IMG/VR virus record: IMGVR_UViG_3300023109_000057
Coordinates: 1-36,758 of that record
Source: a virus
Length of the DNA stretch: 36,758 nt
Direction: 5' to 3' (one strand)
The first letter of the stretch is position 1; each line of letters starts with the position of its first letter. The notes beneath the pieces were generated by a model. The model did not search any database. It saw nothing but the letters and a program-made list of their open reading frames with translations, and was not told where the DNA came from. Position numbers and translations under genes: made by a program. Shown here in pieces: positions 3,101 to 36,758 of the stretch.

Positions 3101-4195
3101 ATGAGCACACATAAAAACACTTCACTCGTAGAATCTATAAAAGATATAACAGAGCGTAGCACAATTGAAGAAGCATTTTCACGCCTGCCAGGGCATGTTA
3201 TTGGAAACGAATTGTATTCTATTAATAGAAAACTTGACATATTTCTCTCTGGACAAATGAATGGCGATGACGTAAACGAAAAGGAGCTTAATCAAATTAT
3301 TAAATCTTTGACTAATATTAAGAAAGAAGTAAAAAGATTTAATAAAAAGGAAGATGTTCCTGTTTCCTACATGTATAAAAAGGAATCTGTTAGTGAAATG
3401 ACCAAATATTTCAAACCTCATTGGATGTACAACCCAAAAGACGGAGAAAAAGAATGGGCTGAAAAACCAGAAGACCACGAGAGATTAAACGCTAAAGGAT
3501 GGGTTCATGAAGATCCATTGGATGAAAGTAAAAGCGAAAATAAGAAAGACATCGCGGATCTCGAAAAGTTAATTAAGAACCCAGATCCATCTAAGGTAAA
3601 GGAATACGGAGGCACCAAGTATGTCGATATGCTTAAAGCGAAAGTACGTAAACTAAAAGAAAACACATCAGTTGAAGAAGCGAGTTCCCGAGGTCATGAT
3701 TGGCTTGTTTTCAACCTAGATACTAAAAAGGTCAAGTACTTTAAAACGTATGATGCCGCTAGTAAATTTGCTATGAGCAAAGGAGGAGTCATTGCCACGT
3801 CAGCATATTTCCACGACAACAAAGATAAATTTTTTGAAGGTGCTGACAGTAAGAATGAACAATCTGTACGAAAAGATTCGATAAAAGAACTTGATGAGGC
3901 AAAAGCACCCGAAGAATATTTAGATTTTCAAAGCGATGATAAGAGTTTTAGAGTCTATCAAGTAAACAACAAATACGGTGAATCTTCAGTAAAACCTGCT
4001 GAAAAGGCAAACGAAAATTGGGCAGGAGGAGCCCCAATAGTTAAAACCTTTAAAAAAGTTTCAAAGGCGCCAATTCCGAAAGGCAAGTTTTGGGTTTTAG
4101 ACTCTGAGGATTATTACTATTGGTTCGTAAAAGCAGATGATTCTTGGTATGCGCTTAATAAAAAATATTCTTGGAAAACATCTACTTTCGCTTAA
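3101..4195 (+). CDS. hypothetical protein with several prohead-protease-like sites
   Basis: I do not recognise a named family for this 364-aa protein. It is hydrophilic and looks modular. An N-terminal helical part (1-90) is followed by a lysine-rich linker with a HWMYNPKDGEKEW patch, a middle domain around GHDWLVFNLDTKKVKYF (about 195-250), and an aromatic C-terminal domain with KFWVLDSEDYYYWFVKADD. Linkers between the parts contain I22-E-E|A, V191-E-E|A and L264-D-E|A, which fit the hydrophobic-x-E|A cleavage rule of the T4 prohead protease gp21. With the tagged genes that follow, this suggests a head-packaged precursor cut into several pieces, but that is inference. It starts 7 bp after regA and may be read from the late box at 2661. 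Confidence 0.7.
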   Translation: MSTHKNTSLVESIKDITERSTIEEAFSRLPGHVIGNELYSINRKLDIFLSGQMNGDDVNEKELNQIIKSLTNIKKEVKRFNKKEDVPVSYMYKKESVSEMTKYFKPHWMYNPKDGEKEWAEKPEDHERLNAKGWVHEDPLDESKSENKKDIADLEKLIKNPDPSKVKEYGGTKYVDMLKAKVRKLKENTSVEEASSRGHDWLVFNLDTKKVKYFKTYDAASKFAMSKGGVIATSAYFHDNKDKFFEGADSKNEQSVRKDSIKELDEAKAPEEYLDFQSDDKSFRVYQVNNKYGESSVKPAEKANENWAGGAPIVKTFKKVSKAPIPKGKFWVLDSEDYYYWFVKADDSWYALNKKYSWKTSTFA

Positions 4196-4212: not shown

Positions 4213-4500
4213 ATGAGCGACACTGAAAAATATTTACTACCACACGAAAAGAAACGTTTAGCTGAAGCTTATAAAATTGCTTGGACGCCAGACCAATTAA
4301 AGTCTATAGACAATGCCTCATCTAAGTTAAATGCTTTCTTAAAGAAAAAGTTTTCTGCCGGTAAGATAAGGATTAAATGGTCTCAAGGCCGTGGCGGTAT
4401 TGCCATTTTTGTAAAAGGTAGAATGGAAGGCCCCACTTTTGATAGCGAAGAAGACGCTAAAGAATATTTGAAAAAGCTCGGAATTAAAGTATCTGAGTAA
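4213..4500 (+). CDS. small hypothetical protein with LLPHEKK...LAEA N-terminal tag
   Basis: This 95-aa protein begins MSDTEKYLLPHEKKRLAEA, nearly identical to the N-terminus of the gene at 4561, then diverges completely. The remainder contains a lysine-rich helix and IKWSQGRGGIAIFVKGRMEGP, followed by DSEEDAKEYLKKLGI, a small alpha/beta domain of unknown function. The start at 4213 was chosen over in-frame ATGs at 4171 and 4195 because it matches the start of its tagged neighbour. The tag ends in L-A-E|A, a good match to the T4 gp21 cleavage rule, so it may be a capsid-targeting peptide removed in the prohead. No promoter lies directly upstream; it probably shares a transcript with 3101. Confidence 0.7.
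   Translation: MSDTEKYLLPHEKKRLAEAYKIAWTPDQLKSIDNASSKLNAFLKKKFSAGKIRIKWSQGRGGIAIFVKGRMEGPTFDSEEDAKEYLKKLGIKVSE
4222..4269 (+). repeat. 48-bp direct repeat, copy 1 (tag-coding)
   Basis: Bases 4222-4269 match 4567-4614 at 47 of 48 positions, the only difference being cgt against ctt near the end. Both copies encode the TEKYLLPHEKK tag up to LAEA. Similarity stops right after the tag in both genes. Confidence 0.9.
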
Positions 4501-4509
4501 AACTAATAC

Positions 4510-4554
4510 AACACAAACAACACAAATAACACAAACAACACAAACAACACAAAT
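4510..4554 (+). repeat. five tandem 9-bp repeats, AACACAAA(C/T)
   Basis: Five perfect-length units (AACACAAAC, AACACAAAT, AACACAAAC, AACACAAAC, AACACAAAT) fill the gap between the two tagged genes. The unit has no G, lacks base-pairing potential and lies just in front of the ATG at 4561. It may act as an unstructured CA-rich leader or be simple slippage expansion. Confidence 0.9.
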
Positions 4555-4560
4555 AAACCA

Positions 4561-5013
4561 ATGAGTACTGAAAAATATTTACTACCACACGAAAAGAAAC
4601 TTTTAGCTGAAGCTAAAATTACAGGTCAAGATAGAGAACGCCTTGATAGCTTAATCTCTTTATATATCGGAGCAACAGGTCCTGAGGCGCATTATTATTA
4701 TGACGGAAATGTTCCTGATGATGAAAAGATTTTAAAGGATATTGAAAAAGAGTTTGGATCAAAAATTGCTAAAGATGTTAGTAATGGAGAGAATGTTTTT
4801 CATTATGGTAGAGATAATAATCAAGGAGGCCGCTTAACATATGGGGATGCAACACAACATCGTGGTGCAAGACGCATCACAAAAGGTGGCAAACTTAATA
4901 AGCAGGACGCGAAAAAACTTAAAAAGGATATTAAAGATATTTTAAAGAATACAAAAACAAATAGAGGTTTTCGGGCACACAATTTAAAAGGAAAATTACC
5001 AGAGAGTAACTAA
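4561..5013 (+). CDS. hypothetical protein with LLPHEKK...LAEA N-terminal tag
   Basis: A 150-aa protein that begins MSTEKYLLPHEKKLLAEA, the same tag as the gene at 4213, followed by an unrelated body. The body starts with an acidic helix, then has GPEAHYYYDGNVPDDEKIL, HYGRDNNQGGRLTYGD and a strongly basic C-terminus (KKLKKDIKDILKNTKTNRG). The tag ends L15-A-E|A, matching the T4 gp21 cleavage rule. The basic body would suit a DNA-associated internal head protein, but that is inference. A C-rich/A-rich 9-bp tandem repeat lies immediately upstream and a strong rho-independent terminator follows 22 bp downstream, so this is the last gene of its transcription unit. Confidence 0.7.
   Translation: MSTEKYLLPHEKKLLAEAKITGQDRERLDSLISLYIGATGPEAHYYYDGNVPDDEKILKDIEKEFGSKIAKDVSNGENVFHYGRDNNQGGRLTYGDATQHRGARRITKGGKLNKQDAKKLKKDIKDILKNTKTNRGFRAHNLKGKLPESN
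4567..4614 (+). repeat. 48-bp direct repeat, copy 2 (tag-coding)
   Basis: Partner of the repeat at 4222-4269, with one mismatch in 48 bp. It marks a recent copying of the tag-coding segment rather than of a whole gene. Confidence 0.9.
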
Positions 5014-9859: not shown

Positions 9860-10237
9860 ATGCAAGAATACACAGTAAAAGTAGAAGACAATGGTGATAA
9901 GTCTTGGTATCAAAATGGTAAGCGCCATCGTGAAGACGGTCCTGCTATTGAATATGCTGATGGTGATAAGTATTGGTATCAAAATGGTAAACGTCACCGT
10001 CTAGACGGTCCTGCTTGTGAATGGGCTAATGCATATAAGTTTTGGTATCAAAATGGTAAACGTCACCGTCTAGACGGTCCTGCTGTTGAATATGCTGATG
10101 GATATAAGGCTTGGTATATTGAAGGTAAAAAACTTACCGAAGAAGAGTTTAATAATCGTAATAAAGTCGAAGTAACTCTCGAAGATATCGCCGAAGCAAT
10201 GAACATCGATGTTGACAAACTTCGTATTAAGGAATAA
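9860..10237 (+). CDS. repeat protein with WYQNGKRHRxDGPA units, copy A
   Basis: A 125-aa protein made of about three and a half repeats of roughly 23 residues with consensus D(G/A)xKxWYQNGKRHRxDGPAxE(Y/W)A, ending in WYIEGKKLTEEEF and a conserved C-terminal helix region (EVTLEDIAEAMNIDVDKLRIKE). The repeat resembles MORN-like/YwqK-type repeats found in phages and bacteria, which form curved beta-hairpin arrays; the biochemical role is unknown. The next gene is a paralogue with the same N- and C-termini and one more repeat. The start is fixed by a GGAACACTGATATAAT motif ending 6 nt before the ATG. Its repeats probably expand and shrink by recombination. Confidence 0.75.
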   Translation: MQEYTVKVEDNGDKSWYQNGKRHREDGPAIEYADGDKYWYQNGKRHRLDGPACEWANAYKFWYQNGKRHRLDGPAVEYADGYKAWYIEGKKLTEEEFNNRNKVEVTLEDIAEAMNIDVDKLRIKE

Positions 10238-10241
10238 TATT

Positions 10242-10691
10242 GTGCAAGAACAAAACGGAATGGTAGATGACAACGGTGATAAGTTTTGGTATCAAAACGG
10301 TAAGCGTCATCGGTTAGATGGACCTGCTATTGAATATGCTAATGGCACTAAGGGTTGGTATCAAAATGATAAGCTTCATCGCGAGGATGGGCACGCCATT
10401 GAGTATGCTAATGGCGCTAAGGGTTGGTATCAAAATGATAAGCTTCACAGGCTAGATGGACCTGCTGTTGAACATGGCGATGGCTTTAAGGCCTGGTATC
10501 AAAATGACAAGCGTCATCGTGAGGATGGACCTGCTTGTGAATATGCTGATGGTGATAGGTATTGGTTTATTGAAGGTAAAGAGCTTACCGAAAAAGAATT
10601 TAACGATAGAAACAACAAAGTCGAAGTTACTCTTGAGGACATTGCTAAAGCTATGAATATCGATGTTGATAAGCTTCGTATTAAGGAATAA
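10242..10691 (+). CDS. repeat protein with WYQN(G/D)KxHRxDGPA units, copy B
   Basis: Tandem paralogue of the preceding gene, 149 aa from a GTG start. That GTG lies 4 bp after the upstream stop and gives VQEQNGMVDDNGDKFWY, aligning with MQEYTVKVEDNGDKSWY of copy A; an in-frame ATG at 10209 inside copy A is less likely. It has about four and a half repeats, some with WYQNDK in place of WYQNGK and one DGHA in place of DGPA, followed by WFIEGKELTEKEF and the same C-terminus, ending in MNIDVDKLRIKE. The near-identical C-terminal segments and divergent middle repeats point to duplication followed by repeat turnover. Function unknown. Confidence 0.75.
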   Translation: MQEQNGMVDDNGDKFWYQNGKRHRLDGPAIEYANGTKGWYQNDKLHREDGHAIEYANGAKGWYQNDKLHRLDGPAVEHGDGFKAWYQNDKRHREDGPACEYADGDRYWFIEGKELTEKEFNDRNNKVEVTLEDIAKAMNIDVDKLRIKE

Positions 10692-16849: not shown

Positions 16850-18182
16850 AACAATAACGGCCGATGAAATATATTGTCGAAAAGCACTACCTCATATTAA
16901 AGCTGAATATTTTGAAAACGAATATAAGCCCGTTTATGAGCTTATCTTAAGTTTCTTATCAAAATTTAATAAATTGCCAACATCCTCTGCCCTAAGTGTG
17001 GAGTTTCAAAAGAGTGATTTTATAAATAGATCTAATAGTAATGATATACACAATTTAATACTTGATCTGGAAAATAATGAGAAAGTTGACAGAGAATGGC
17101 TACTGAACTCTACCGAGGAATGGTGCAAAAATAGGGCAGTCTATCTTGCAATCATTAAATCAATCGGCATCATCGATGGAAAGGAAAAAGAACTAACTGA
17201 TGGTGCTATCCCCGGAATCCTATCCAAGGCGCTACAAGTGTCTTTTGATACGAATGTTGGTCACGATTATTTTGAAAACGCAGATAACAGATACGAATTC
17301 TATCATACGCAAGAAGATAAAATCCCCTTCGACATATCGCTACTTAACACCATTACAAAAGGAGGTGTTTCGAATAAAACTCTCAATATTATTCTGGCGG
17401 GCACTGGTGTGGGAAAAAGTTTGGCGATGTGCCACTTTGCTTCTGCCAATATCTCCGCTGGACGCAATGTTTTATACATTACTCTTGAAATGGCAGAAGA
17501 AAGGATTGCTGAGCGAATCGATGCCAATTTACTTGACGTCCCGATTGATCAACTTGAGACGTTGCCTAAACAACTTTTTAATTCCAAAGTTGATCAGATC
17601 AAAGAGAAGTCTCGAGGAAAGCTTATCGTTAAGGAATATCCAACAGCAACAGCACATGTAGGTCACTTCCGCGCCCTTTTAGATGAACTAAAACTTAAAA
17701 AGGATTTTAAACCCGATGTGATATTTGTTGACTATCTTAACATTATGGCATCAGCGCGTATCAAAGGTCTAGGTGGTTCGGTGAACACCTATTCGTTAAT
17801 TAAGGCGATTGCTGAAGAGCTACGAGGTCTTGCTGTAGAAACTAATGTTCCTGTTTGGTCTGCAACACAGGTAACGAGAACAGGTTTTGGCAATACTGAT
17901 GTTGAGTTAACTGATACTTCAGAATCATTTGGTTTGCCTGCAACTGCTGACTTAATGTTAGCACTTATTTCGACAGAACAGCTTGAAGAAATGAATCAGC
18001 TCATGGTTAAACAATTGAAAAACCGATATAACGATCCTACACAAAATAAAAGATTTGTTGTTGGAATTGATAGGTCAAAAATGCGACTATACGATGTAGA
18101 GGATTCTGCTCAGACACTTTCAAGTGATGAAATTACTCATACTCCAGTTTCCAATAAAGATTTTTCAGCCTTTAAAATATAA
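16821..18182 (+). CDS. 41: replicative DNA helicase gp41 (DnaB-like)
   Basis: Hexameric 5'-3' helicase that unwinds ahead of the polymerase and works with the primase. Clear alignment to T4 gp41 throughout: the N-terminal ALPHIKAEYFENEY, GAIPGILSKALQVSFDTNVGHD, FDISLLNTITKGG, Walker A AGTGVGKS (193-200), LEMAEERIAERIDANLLDV, VIFVDYLNIMASAR (Walker B region), IAEELRGLAVE and ESFGLPATADLMLA. The ATG at 16821 is preferred to 16785 because it starts just before the conserved region and fits T4 in length (453 against 475 aa). It ends in TAATG shared with the next gene. The primase partner is not a T4 gp61 in this window; the AEP-like protein at 8028 is a candidate. Confidence 0.95.
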   Translation: MTNLQQLIIKTITADEIYCRKALPHIKAEYFENEYKPVYELILSFLSKFNKLPTSSALSVEFQKSDFINRSNSNDIHNLILDLENNEKVDREWLLNSTEEWCKNRAVYLAIIKSIGIIDGKEKELTDGAIPGILSKALQVSFDTNVGHDYFENADNRYEFYHTQEDKIPFDISLLNTITKGGVSNKTLNIILAGTGVGKSLAMCHFASANISAGRNVLYITLEMAEERIAERIDANLLDVPIDQLETLPKQLFNSKVDQIKEKSRGKLIVKEYPTATAHVGHFRALLDELKLKKDFKPDVIFVDYLNIMASARIKGLGGSVNTYSLIKAIAEELRGLAVETNVPVWSATQVTRTGFGNTDVELTDTSESFGLPATADLMLALISTEQLEEMNQLMVKQLKNRYNDPTQNKRFVVGIDRSKMRLYDVEDSAQTLSSDEITHTPVSNKDFSAFKI

Positions 18183-18655
18183 TGATTGCTGTATATGGAT
18201 TAGATAAAGATCGAAAAGCTATGGTAAAGTCCATTTGTGATTATACCATCCAGTTGTTAATGCCAAGAATGAAAAATAAATTGAACATCAAATTTAAATT
18301 TATTGATGATTTGGTTTCAAGCGATGGGGTTTATGGCGATTGCGAATGGTTAGGAGAAACGTGTAGACGCCCTAGAAACTTTTTTATTCGAATCGATTCA
18401 TCACAGGAAAACCAGCTAATGTTAGAAACTGTGGCTCATGAACTTGTACACGTAAAACAGTATGCTCGCGGAGAAATGAAAGAGCTTGTTAGATCATCTA
18501 AATACACAAGATGGAAAGGTAAGGATATCAATCACCGCAAATTAAACTATTACGATCAGCCGTGGGAAATAGAAGCACATGGCAGAGAGACGGGTATATT
18601 CATTAGATGGCTAAGCGAAAGCAAATGGAAAAAGTGTAAATGGTGCAAATATTAA
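18182..18655 (+). CDS. small HExxH zinc metallopeptidase-like protein
   Basis: A 157-aa protein with a zincin signature HELVH (86-90) in TVAHELVHVKQYARGEM and a downstream WEIEAHGRE that can supply the third ligand. This HExxH...WExEA layout is seen in SprT-like and related small phage metallopeptidases. Four cysteines occur, two in the C-terminal WKKCKWCKY, which could bind a second metal. There is no signal peptide, so it would act in the cytoplasm or in the particle. It shares TAATG with the helicase gene and so is the last member of the uvsX operon. Substrate unknown. Confidence 0.72.
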   Translation: MIAVYGLDKDRKAMVKSICDYTIQLLMPRMKNKLNIKFKFIDDLVSSDGVYGDCEWLGETCRRPRNFFIRIDSSQENQLMLETVAHELVHVKQYARGEMKELVRSSKYTRWKGKDINHRKLNYYDQPWEIEAHGRETGIFIRWLSESKWKKCKWCKY

Positions 18656-18667
18656 AAGCTCATTTAT

Positions 18668-18675
18668 TATAAATA
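18668..18675 (+). promoter_or_regulatory. T4-type late promoter of the tagged-protein block
   Basis: TATAAATA, an exact late box, with predicted start near 18681 and a short leader before the ATG at 18695. It is the only late box seen in an intergenic position before 25902, so it may drive the whole run of genes from 18695 to 25894. Confidence 0.7.
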
Positions 18676-18694
18676 GAATTGAATACTACACACG

Positions 18695-20248
18695 ATGGGA
18701 AAAATGCTAGAATTTAAAGATTATATAACAGAAGACATATCAACCGGATCTCTAGAAAAAGCCAAAACATTAATATTAAGATACCTTCGCAAAAAGACAG
18801 GTACTTCAAAAATGTTTGCAACTTTAGGATTAGAGAAATATAAAAATACGAATGGCGCAGGTTACGGATTACGTTTTTATGCACCAGGAAAAAAGATAGA
18901 ATCTTGGAGATTTAACTGGGTAAACGTTGGAGGTGCTAATAGTAGCAACTTAGCTTCAATAGATTTTTGGAATGGTTCTACTCAAGGACCGACATACCAC
19001 CTATCCTTTGACCGTGATGTTTCTTTAGTTAAAATTCTTCCACAAGTAGCGGATATGCTTAAATCCGGAAAGATCACAACTGGTAGATTTTCTACATATC
19101 CATCAGACATCCCACTTAACGAAGATGTAGAATTAGAATCAAGTGAAGTTTTATGCGAAGCAGTTGATCCTGATGATGCGTATGATAATGTTATATCATT
19201 AGTATCAAGTCCTGGATTCACTAAACAAAAGGTTTTTAAAGTTTGGAAAAGCGTAGGTATTAAAATATTTGATGAGCTAGAGTCTCAGAATCCTGCACTA
19301 ATTAAAAAAGTTGGTCGTCAATATATTTGGAAAGGTAAGAAAGCGGACATTAAAAAACTTTTATTACAGAAACAAACAATCCTTGATTCAATTGGTGTAG
19401 TTACTGGTAAAGTTAAAAGTGGTTCCTCGACTGAAAGATACGCTAAAGACGCGCAACTTGACGAACTAGATTCACAACGCGAAAAACTTACATATGAAAA
19501 CCAATTAAATGATCTAGAAAATCTTATTAAGATGACCGCGTCAGGTGCCTCAAATGCGTTGTTTATTGCAGGTCGAGGAGGTATAGGTAAAACATATACT
19601 GTAGAAAAAGTGTTAGGCGAAATTGGTCTTTCTGATGGACAAGGTTACTTTAAAAACACTGGTACTGCATCAGCTGCAGGTATATATTCTCTACTGTTTA
19701 AATACAAAGACGAAATCGTACTATTCGATGATTCCGACGATGCTTTAAAAGACCAAGAAGCACGAAACATGTTTAAAGCTGCAACCGATACGAAAAAGGT
19801 AAGAAAGCTAGTGTGGAATAAAATGGGTAAGAATGTCGTTGATCCAGATGAAGATATGACTGATGAGGAAATCCTTGATCAAGGGAAAATCCCACGTTAT
19901 TTTGAATTTACGGGTAAAGTCATATTCATCTCCAACTTGAAAATAGATAAGCTCGATCCTGATGGTGCAATTCGTACAAGGGCCTTTATGATTGAAATAG
20001 ATCCAACCGATGTTGAAATCTATGACTTCATGGAAACAATCGTAGACAAAATTAAATTGGATGGTGATTTGGAATTAGATTCCGCAACACGTAAAAAGAC
20101 AGTTGACTTACTTCGTAAAGGAACGTCTAAACAAACCGCTAACTTACGTAAACTGTCGCGAGCTTTGAATATGCAGGCAGGTACTATCAAATCTGGTGTT
20201 AATATTTCAGACAACGATCTATCACGAATGATTGAAACTTATGCTTAA
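18695..20248 (+). CDS. AAA+ ATPase with N-terminal capsid-targeting-like sequence
   Basis: A 517-aa protein. It begins MGKMLEFKDYITED, similar to the T4 capsid-targeting sequence (MKTYQEFIAE|A), with a fitting gp21 site after I11-T-E13. Residues 20-230 are a two-part region of unknown fold, split by L-C-E|A in SSEVLCEAVD, another possible cleavage site. The C-terminal half is an AAA+ ATPase: Walker A GRGGIGKT (293-300), Walker B VLFDDSDD (D345-D349), sensor-1 Asn in KVIFISNLK and an AIRTRA arginine-finger candidate. It is read from a late promoter and overlaps the next tagged gene. Inference: an ATPase packaged in the head and delivered with the DNA, or working in head assembly. Confidence 0.75.
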   Translation: MGKMLEFKDYITEDISTGSLEKAKTLILRYLRKKTGTSKMFATLGLEKYKNTNGAGYGLRFYAPGKKIESWRFNWVNVGGANSSNLASIDFWNGSTQGPTYHLSFDRDVSLVKILPQVADMLKSGKITTGRFSTYPSDIPLNEDVELESSEVLCEAVDPDDAYDNVISLVSSPGFTKQKVFKVWKSVGIKIFDELESQNPALIKKVGRQYIWKGKKADIKKLLLQKQTILDSIGVVTGKVKSGSSTERYAKDAQLDELDSQREKLTYENQLNDLENLIKMTASGASNALFIAGRGGIGKTYTVEKVLGEIGLSDGQGYFKNTGTASAAGIYSLLFKYKDEIVLFDDSDDALKDQEARNMFKAATDTKKVRKLVWNKMGKNVVDPDEDMTDEEILDQGKIPRYFEFTGKVIFISNLKIDKLDPDGAIRTRAFMIEIDPTDVEIYDFMETIVDKIKLDGDLELDSATRKKTVDLLRKGTSKQTANLRKLSRALNMQAGTIKSGVNISDNDLSRMIETYA

Positions 20249-21632
20249 TATTAAAACATTTCAAGCGTTTCTTACCGAAGGAACTAAACTAGCTCCAGGA
20301 GAATTGAAAAAGACTGCCACTGGAGGTCCTAATGCAGGAAAAGAACGTACGGAAATCTTATCAAATAAGATACGTAAACAAGAACCTCTTACACTCGCGA
20401 AAGGAGGAGAGTTTCAAGTTGTAGACGTACAAGGTGCATTAGCATCAATTGAACAGTTCAAAAAAGATGGCAAAAGTTTTAATTTAATCGGTAAGGATGA
20501 AACTAAAATATCTTCGTCAGATTTACTTAAAACAAAAGAATTTGGTGGAGGAGCAGGAGCTGGTGGAGGTACTGCAAGTACAGCAATTGGTGAATCAGCC
20601 CAGTGTGTTTGGATGGCAGCAATGCTCGATATTGGTCACGCAATGCCAATTGAAAGTTTTACAGATGAAGTTCTTACAAAGGCTTTTAAAAAAGTAAGTG
20701 TTGGAAAAACTCAACTTGAAGAAATTTTAGGAATTGACGAGAGTTGGAAAGTTTCATCCTATCTTACTGCACAGTATGTTATAGCGAATAGTATAATCGA
20801 AAAAGGCATGACTTTCCATCGCGATGATAACTTAATGAAAGCAATCTATTCTGCTAAAAACACAGCATTCAAGAATAACGACTTTCAACCACTCCCGGAT
20901 GATAAGTGGAATCCCGGCGATATTTGGGTTGTAGACACCGACTTTAAATTTAACGAACTCAACACTACAACAGTTGAAGATTTGAACGACGATATTCTTG
21001 ACTTATATCTCCAAAAGCGTCTGGTTGGTATTTCTCTAAAGAAAGTGTCAAAAGCTGTTAAAGGTGTTGAAAAGAATGTTCAGCGCCCGCCTGAAACTGA
21101 AGATTACATATACTCAGCAGGACACATCAAAGCGATTGTGCGCGGCGAGTGGTATACAACTAAAGCGAATTACATTACTCATAAGTATGGTCAACTTGAT
21201 ATTCGTCCTAATTCTGCGTTTGGGTCTCATAAAGTTGAGATTAAAGGTAAAGGCGCTCGAGGTGGGGGTGCATCTTGGGGTGTTATGTCCGATGCTGCAA
21301 AAAGAATCTATAGAAGACAACTCCCTAAGAATTCAGTAATCAAAAAGGAAGCTCAACTAATTGCTAAGGGAGATAAAAAGGCTATTAGTAATTTCACACA
21401 AATGCTTCAGGGTGTTGATAAAAGAATAACAGAAGACGAAGTGATAGAAAAGCTTAATGGCTTAGGTAAAAATTCTGCAGTGTGGATTCATGGTAAACTA
21501 GGTGGCTTATACGTAATTAATCTTATTTCAAAGGGCGGCATTAAAGCTAATAAGTTTATCACACAACTTATTAATTACGCTGGCAGTTCAACATCGGACT
21601 CAAGCGCATATATAATTTTAAAAGAAAAATAA
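20241..21632 (+). CDS. tagged protein, possible PD-(D/E)xK-like nuclease fold
   Basis: A 463-aa protein starting MLNIKTFQAFLTEG, the closest match here to the T4 capsid-targeting sequence, with a gp21-type site after L11-T-E13. The ATG at 20241 is used because it places this motif as in the other tagged genes; an ATG lies 9 bp upstream. A glycine-rich linker (EFGGGAGAGGGTAST) follows near residue 110, and I-G-E|S just after it is another possible cut site. WNPGDIWVVD (D227) followed by VGISLKK (S265, K267) resembles the D...(E/S)xK pattern of restriction-type nucleases, but the match is weak. The C-terminal part is alpha/beta and unrecognised. It overlaps the AAA+ gene by 8 bp and shares TAATG with the next gene. 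Confidence 0.65.
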   Translation: MLNIKTFQAFLTEGTKLAPGELKKTATGGPNAGKERTEILSNKIRKQEPLTLAKGGEFQVVDVQGALASIEQFKKDGKSFNLIGKDETKISSSDLLKTKEFGGGAGAGGGTASTAIGESAQCVWMAAMLDIGHAMPIESFTDEVLTKAFKKVSVGKTQLEEILGIDESWKVSSYLTAQYVIANSIIEKGMTFHRDDNLMKAIYSAKNTAFKNNDFQPLPDDKWNPGDIWVVDTDFKFNELNTTTVEDLNDDILDLYLQKRLVGISLKKVSKAVKGVEKNVQRPPETEDYIYSAGHIKAIVRGEWYTTKANYITHKYGQLDIRPNSAFGSHKVEIKGKGARGGGASWGVMSDAAKRIYRRQLPKNSVIKKEAQLIAKGDKKAISNFTQMLQGVDKRITEDEVIEKLNGLGKNSAVWIHGKLGGLYVINLISKGGIKANKFITQLINYAGSSTSDSSAYIILKEK

Positions 21633-25914: not shown

Positions 25915-26577
25915 ATGAAATCACATGACAAAATCACAATGTCCATAGCACAAGCTGTGGAACAGGTATTCGAAAACAATTCAGACTTCGTTGATCTGCA
26001 TTCTATAGACGCAAATAAACGAAGAGGCTCTGAACCTCTTACAGAAAAAGACATTGATGAAGCTAATGAATTTACGAAGGCGGCGGCAAAGGCTGCAGTG
26101 GCTGGTGATAAAGACTTTGAATTTGATGGTAAATCATATCCAACTGAAATGGATGTAGATGTAGCTAAGAAAATCCTCGGTGAATCTGTTTCTGTTAATG
26201 AAGCAATTGATTTTAGCAAAGTTAATGACGATCAGCTTAAGGGTTGGCTTAAAGTGTTTAAAACCCACACAGGTAACCCATGGAGTGGATTTAAGGATGA
26301 TGTTAAGCGAGCTGAAAAGGAAGCTAAAAAACGTGGTCTTGAAGAATCAGTTGATCTTGAAGAGTCGCTAGCAATAAAAAAGATTGATAAAATCACCAAC
26401 ATGCTCGACTCTCTTGAAATTGCACTGCGACCTAAAGGCAACGTAAACAAACTAGTCAACAAAGAGCTTGAAGGCAATTACGATAATGACTTTAAGATCG
26501 TGTTTGATTATATAACTGCTGCTTCAGCAAAATGGGAAGATGAAGTAGTGTTTGATCTGCATAATCAGCAGATCTAA
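25915..26577 (+). CDS. hypothetical late protein, 220 aa, with internal cleavage-like sites
   Basis: I do not recognise a named function. The N-terminal part is helical (SIAQAVEQVFENNSDFVDL), followed by an alanine-rich helix (EANEFTKAAAKAAVAGDKD) and FEFDGKSYPTEMDVDVAKKI, a motif I associate with small phage head-related proteins. V-N-E|A in SVNEAIDF and L-E-E|S in DLEESLAI fit the prohead protease rule and separate the protein into three segments. The second segment has a helical KVNDDQLKGWLKVFKTHTGN. The start at 25915 sits at the predicted start of the late promoter at 25902; an ATG at 25939 is the alternative if leaderless translation does not occur. Confidence 0.65.
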   Translation: MKSHDKITMSIAQAVEQVFENNSDFVDLHSIDANKRRGSEPLTEKDIDEANEFTKAAAKAAVAGDKDFEFDGKSYPTEMDVDVAKKILGESVSVNEAIDFSKVNDDQLKGWLKVFKTHTGNPWSGFKDDVKRAEKEAKKRGLEESVDLEESLAIKKIDKITNMLDSLEIALRPKGNVNKLVNKELEGNYDNDFKIVFDYITAASAKWEDEVVFDLHNQQI

Positions 26578-36175: not shown

Positions 36176-36207
36176 ATATTCAGAAAGGTAAGGAAACCAA
36201 CTATATT

Positions 36208-36378
36208 ATGAAAGAAAAACTACTACACGAACGAATGCATCAGATTAAACGAAGTCCTCAAGATGAGGATGTTCGTATGGGCGAGATAGACATCGCCATG
36301 AATGTTCTAGAGCGACTTAAGAACAATGCCCCAGAGCTGTTTAAGAGTGTGCTGAGTATGATTGACGATATCAAGTAA
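36208..36378 (+). CDS. small early protein, 56 aa, duplicated downstream
   Basis: Encodes MKEKLLHERMHQIKRSPQDE and ends NAPELFKSVLSMIDDIK; a charged helical protein with no recognised family. It is the first gene behind the early cassette and has the same leader with an AAGGTAAGGA Shine-Dalgarno region. The first 99 bases are repeated at 36660-36758 with a single difference (GAGATA to GAGGTA, Ile to Val), showing a very recent duplication. As a short early gene it may affect host functions; nothing in the sequence indicates which one. Confidence 0.6.
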   Translation: MKEKLLHERMHQIKRSPQDEDVRMGEIDIAMNVLERLKNNAPELFKSVLSMIDDIK

Positions 36379-36653: not shown

Positions 36654-36659
36654 ATAAGT

Positions 36660-36758
36660 ATGAAAGAAAAACTACTACACGAACGAATGCATCAGATTAA
36701 ACGAAGTCCTCAAGATGAGGATGTTCGTATGGGCGAGGTAGACATCGCCATGAATGTT
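36660..36758 (+). CDS. second copy of the 56-aa early gene, 3' end cut by window
   Basis: The first 33 codons of a near-identical copy of the gene at 36208, with one base difference in 99 (Ile to Val). It has a different upstream region from copy one: no hairpin, no TTTACA promoter and no AAGGTAAGGA leader, but a GGAACACTGATATAAT motif. The right end of the gene is outside the window. Confidence 0.65.
   Translation, partial: MKEKLLHERMHQIKRSPQDEDVRMGEVDIAMNV

Follow-up and report, generated by a model that had tools for sequence, protein, structure and literature searches.

A 48-base repeat opening two neighboring genes of a marine T4-like phage probably encodes an N-terminal propeptide that targets its protein to the capsid and is cleaved off; in sequence class it is unrelated to the internal-protein signal of T4. 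Sequence comparison gives good support to reading the tag as a copied signal module; it is probably removable and most likely loads small proteins into the head. A second class of capsid-targeting signal had been proposed in the preliminary description of this DNA: the copied module stands, and the targeting role we infer as likely.

The window, i.e., the whole stretch of DNA analyzed, is a 36,758-base virus record, a fragment of a marine T4-like phage. Its genes run in the order clamp loader, RegA, a composite ORF (3101-4195), gene A (4213), gene B (4561) and DNA polymerase gp43; the names clamp loader and RegA follow the equivalent annotated order in Phage C48C1. This marine T4-like phage is also the closest annotated relative by gp43. 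Homologues of many window genes, in largely the same order, lie on the IMG/VR contig G001 (170,716 bases), whose major capsid protein is closest, among annotated phages, to those of Methylophilales phage Melnitz and others (marine T4-like). Further IMG/VR contigs of the clade collapse to four haplotypes: window/L003, L016/L005, the L021 (G001) type and the L019 type. The tag encoded by the repeat is called class-2 below, and tags of the classical T4 type class-1. The features are as follows (↓ marks a predicted cut).

3101-4195, + strand: composite ORF of 364 aa, carrying IEE↓A, VEE↓A and LDE↓A sites
3890-4192, + strand: body C behind an L-D-E↓A site at 3890-3901; in L019/L021 body C is a separate class-2-tagged gene
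4213-4266, + strand: MSDTEKYLLPHEKKRLAE, the N-terminal tag heading gene A; gp21 is predicted to cut L-A-E↓A after 4266
4267-4500, + strand: body A with stop; small, basic, 8.6 kDa, pI 9.8
4501-4560, + strand: spacer between genes A and B, consisting of a 9-nt microsatellite and an A-rich leader
4561-4611, + strand: MSTEKYLLPHEKKLLAE, the N-terminal tag heading gene B; gp21 is predicted to cut L-A-E↓A after 4611
4612-5013, + strand: body B with stop; 14.9 kDa, pI 9.6
18695-18736, + strand: class-1 tag MGKMLEFKDYITE↓D of another window gene
20241-20279, + strand: class-1 tag MLNIKTFQAFLTE↓G of another window gene; the G001 orthologue has MKSFQTFLIE↓G
Peptide form of the class-2 tag: MSTEKYLLPHEKKLLAEA

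Two further repeats lie elsewhere in the window. Two adjacent genes (9860-10691) are built of 69-bp repeats encoding a WYQNGKRHREDGPAIEYADG-like unit, and a 100-bp direct repeat (36207-36306 and 36659-36758; 99% identical), whose second copy ends at the record end, reflects a short gene duplication or, alternatively, an end effect of assembly.

Genes A and B are neighbors on the same strand, and both carry the repeat at the N-terminus. Positions 4222-4269 and 4567-4614 are identical at 47/48 bases in the same reading frame, far above chance, with CGT/CTT (R/L) as the sole mismatch; they correspond to codons 4-19 of gene A and codons 3-18 of gene B. The near-identical tag reported earlier in these two genes is thus confirmed, as are the gene starts given for them: since the L016 orthologue of gene A opens right at MSTEK, we place the start at 4213 and not at the in-frame ATG at 4195. 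Similarity had also been said to stop exactly after the tag, which does not hold in L016, where the two copies also agree over about 11 nt of leader ahead of the ATG and, past the tag, over 7 nt (AAAATTG, residues K-I). Because this shared stretch is longer, the end of the copied tract does not coincide exactly with the predicted cut; window gene A carries one more codon, TAT, just after the tag, where the L016 copies share AAAATTG. The gap between A and B (4501-4560) is filled by a 9-nt microsatellite (AACACAAAC/AACACAAAT) and is shorter in L016.

Beyond the tag, the two genes had been described as unrelated, and at the sequence level they appear to be: a profile comparison of bodies A and B returned a probability of 0.2%. 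The predicted structure of body A is of moderate quality (pLDDT 70) and has no PDB fold match at E<=0.001, and that of body B is too poor (pLDDT 51), so homology is neither claimed nor denied from structure.

The preliminary description had suggested looking for the tag and its fusion partners in related phages. There, MSTEKYLLPxEKKxLxE↓ precedes four non-homologous small bodies, A, B, C and D, between regA and gp43. The form MSTEKYLLPNEKKxLxE is found on bodies D, C and B in L021 and on D and C in L019, where the body C tag is the variant NQRQALTE. G001 has the class-2 tag three times, all inside the regA-gp43 island, and its body B orthologue is 81% identical and carries the same tag. The same tag-gene arrangement recurs in several contigs, which makes an assembly artifact unlikely as its source. 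The tag is 17-18 residues long, and every distinct version keeps L-x-E, with A, Y, D or T as x and A, S, E or V at P1'. Degenerate tag patterns matched only this clade in IMG/VR, apart from chance matches lacking the rest of the tag; the patterns found nothing beyond this clade and chance matches in 84,980 prokaryote genomes. A tblastn search of the tag against 50,697 phage records likewise returned nothing beyond this clade and chance matches, a result that proves little alone given the weak 21-aa query. Judged by these searches of IMG/VR, prokaryote genomes and phage records, the class-2 tag is known from one clade only. The equivalent island of Phage C48C1 contains other genes and no class-2 tag. 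Between the tag island and gp43, L021 (8877-9308) and L019 (8346-8771) have a gene for a small heat-shock protein (Hsp20-like), as does Phage C48C1 in the same place; the window lacks it.

Body A occurs in all four haplotypes. It carries the class-2 tag in the window and L016 and MKSFKQYLEG in L019/L021, so one cargo bears either tag: the protein starts MKSFKQYLEG↓LRIAYTP in L019 and L021 vs M..TEKYLLPHEKKRLAEA↓YKIAWTP, and body A is about 65% identical to the orthologue bearing the different N-terminus. In the T4 capsid-targeting sequence (CTS), residues 4 and 7 direct targeting, and residues 8 and 10 direct processing (PMC9026906). MKSFKQYLEG shares with the T4 CTS the aromatic residues 4 and 7 as well as L8; its Glu stands at position 9, not 10, making an irregular processing site. 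Further classical-type tags are present elsewhere in G001 (MKSFQTFLIE↓G, MKSFKEYIGE↓A, MISFKHFISE↓A and RFKDFVLTE↓G), and Melnitz has one too (MQGFKTFLSEA). The same phages appear to use the classical T4 tag beside the class-2 tag.

Body C also occurs as a fusion partner. It makes up the final 100 aa of the composite ORF 3101-4195, with 64% identity to G001 98580-98933, whereas aa 12-264 of this ORF match the G001 gene 123813-125687. Body C therefore stands directly behind an L-x-E site both as a tagged gene and as a fusion partner. The motif [LI]xE[AGS] occurs 4 times in ORF 3101-4195 vs 0.6 expected from shuffles (P = 0.002), 8 times in the protein of G001 123813-125687 vs 1.3, and 9 times in the gp22-position protein vs 2.4; these motif-rich proteins were chosen after inspection, making the P values indicative, and the remaining G001 genes, pooled, show a mild excess (114 vs 91 expected). 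Multiply processed composite internal proteins are plausible on this evidence. Large proteins whose apparent modules are separated by many L/I-x-E↓A/G/S sites are encoded by the G001 genes 123813-125687 and 17388-18818; they are candidates for such composite internal head proteins. The window gene 25915-26577 contains 4 L/I-x-E sites vs 0.5 expected and has a 75-aa segment (40% identity) in common with the G001 gene 79946-80611, located just before gp21; it is possibly a second prohead-core-like protein.

A candidate protease for the predicted cut is encoded in the clade. Peptidase_S77 (the gp21 family) was found in 4/5 relative contigs searched, and in G001 the gp21-family gene directly precedes the gp22- and gp23-position genes; the window fragment stops short of the head genes. 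T4 gp23 is cut after F-L-T-E in its N-terminal part. G001 gp23 has QYLNE↓AGEP in its N-terminal part, near that position. The specificity of T4 gp21 is L/I-x-E (PMC9026906). This motif is short and single sites weigh little (one per tag, P 0.02-0.27 per protein); the earlier claim of a gp21-type site gains support from the invariance of L-x-E across the distinct tags together with gp21 and gp23 in a relative.

Might the tag instead be a docking peptide for another partner (a chaperone, the replisome or a host protein), kept on the protein, with L-x-E incidental? The island does sit among replication genes, between regA and gp43. However, L-x-E is invariant though adjacent residues vary, it precedes body C even without the rest of the tag, and body A exchanges the class-2 tag for a classical-type one, all of which leaves docking an unlikely explanation. 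A cleavable targeting module is favored because body A orthologues carry the T4-CTS-like MKSFKQYLEG, because body C is also fused behind L-D-E↓A in the window, and because L-x-E is invariant while x varies and a relative has gp21 and gp23 LNE↓A.

Between clades, tags differ with pS of 0.50-0.93 and pN mostly of 0.08-0.13 (up to 0.28 for the divergent L019 C tag copy). Since silent sites diverge while pN stays low, it is the peptide, not the nucleotides, that is conserved. The same values speak against a regulatory role of the repeat, as DNA or RNA, around the start codon, e.g., as a RegA-type translational operator, with the peptide as a by-product; the L016 repeat does span the start region plus about 11 nt of leader and adjoins regA, but with silent sites diverging and L-x-E kept while x varies, an operator was rejected as very improbable.

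Within genomes, tag pS is 0.00 for the window A/B pair, 0.17, 0.35 and 0.56 for the L021 pairs and 0.43 for L019 D/C, vs 0.75 (D), 0.59 (C) and 0.93 (B) for orthologous tags. Because a tag offers 9-10 silent sites, the evidence that tags are re-copied within genomes is suggestive rather than strong, the window pair being the clearest case. Ordinary tandem duplication, in which the bodies of A and B would have diverged past recognition with the N-terminus kept, would suit two adjacent same-strand genes with the same tag, but it was rejected as highly unlikely given that body A occurs with either tag (it is about 65% identical to an orthologue bearing another N-terminus), that the bodies lack profile similarity and that the two tags have identical silent sites, unlike an old duplication. 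The earlier reading of recent module copying rather than gene duplication is in line with both the body A orthologues bearing another tag and the tendency of paralogous tags to share silent codons.

One contig shows cassette loss at the tag. L014 equals L021 minus exactly 344 bp, one tag-to-tag unit (gene D), with 800/800 bases matching upstream of D and 1994/2000 from C onward; the junction falls inside the identical tag (L014 5838 vs L021 7291-7635). A crossover within the tag may have removed the cassette, misassembly at the repeat being the other possibility. T4 is well known to recombine at short repeats (PMC9391042).

From sequence we infer the following course of events. The peptide MSTEKYLLPxEKKxLx would bind the prohead core and carry small basic proteins into the prohead, gp21 would cleave after L-x-E of the tag, and the freed bodies would remain with the DNA and be injected; they might have an anti-defense role. 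The tag would act as a portable module, copied from gene to gene and replaceable by the classical F-x-x-[FY]-[LI]-x-E tag, its DNA being a recombination seam in the cassette island between regA and gp43. A broader reading, to which we give about an even chance, is that T4-like phages can use, side by side, two capsid-targeting tags of unrelated sequence that are interchangeable on one cargo, that the seam gains, loses and re-tags cassettes, and that some cargoes reside in gp21-processed composite proteins.

The bodies are small and basic, of 8.5-14.9 kDa and pI 8.8-10.1 vs a genome median pI of 5.9. Homologues of the bodies were found in no phage records and, in IMG/VR, in this clade only; no significant Pfam, PHROG or PADLOC family was assigned to them. 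An anti-restriction role for the bodies may be raised purely by analogy with T4 IP1-3, for which such a role has been shown (PMC12373910). Some of the tagged genes may be expressed late. In G001, 33 genes have TATAAATA, the T4-type late promoter, within 80 nt upstream. It lies 5-9 nt from the start codon in 21/33, including D, B (5 nt in both) and classical-tag genes, and within 26 nt in 29/33. This suggests nearly leaderless late mRNAs starting from TATAAATA 5-9 nt before the start codon. No exact TATAAATA precedes window genes A and B. The pattern was noted at G001 loci L053-L061 and at window genes 25915 and 26644, and upstream regions are A-rich with little G.

A single targeting tag carried by internal proteins with unrelated bodies is known from T4 already, where the IPII and IPIII tags are identical, propeptides have 10-19 residues and the internal proteins are reported to be small and basic (PMC9026906); many internal-protein genes of T-even phages were recognized by their shared signal (PMC12373910). 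The clade resembles IPI/IPII/IPIII in its small basic non-homologous bodies behind one short N-terminal tag with a gp21-type end, so that a shared tag on non-homologous bodies, L/I-x-E↓, a gp21-family protease and small basic proteins are all present. Unlike the T4 CTS, the class-2 tag is longer (17-18 residues, still inside the 10-19 of T4 internal-protein propeptides), is unrelated in sequence to MKTYQEFIAE, has a helix-Pro-helix character according to low-confidence models and is found in phages that also carry classical-type tags. It has E4, L7 and L8, with cut-site L/E at 15/17, and lacks the classical pattern M-K-x-[FY]-x-x-[FY]-[LI]-x-E (aromatic 4/7, L/I 8, E 10), and we keep it out of the classical CTS sequence family because this residue pattern fails. 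In every feature testable here except that pattern, the predicted tag resembles the T4 CTS. A non-T4-like N-terminal sequence of <30 residues of phage P1 DarB suffices to bring a reporter into the capsid (PMC9024508); it is likewise a short N-terminal packaging signal, differing in that it is known from one large protein. In the giant phages SPN3US/phiKZ, a gp21-family protease cleaves off head propeptides behind Glu, in some of them at several sites; most of these propeptides are long, and the parts of the source consulted describe no short tag common to a gene series (PMC10052503).

The new sequence class, the natural swap with a classical tag and the recombination-seam role appear to be new. 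If the reading is true, the head-loading signal of T4-like phages would comprise more than one sequence family, and searches with the T4 tag would miss cargo genes. The class-2 tag would provide a handle for finding injected, possibly anti-defense, proteins of marine phages. With either tag occurring naturally on one body, the targeting code would be open to direct testing. Recombination at the tag is further suggested as a way in which phages shuffle injected cargo.
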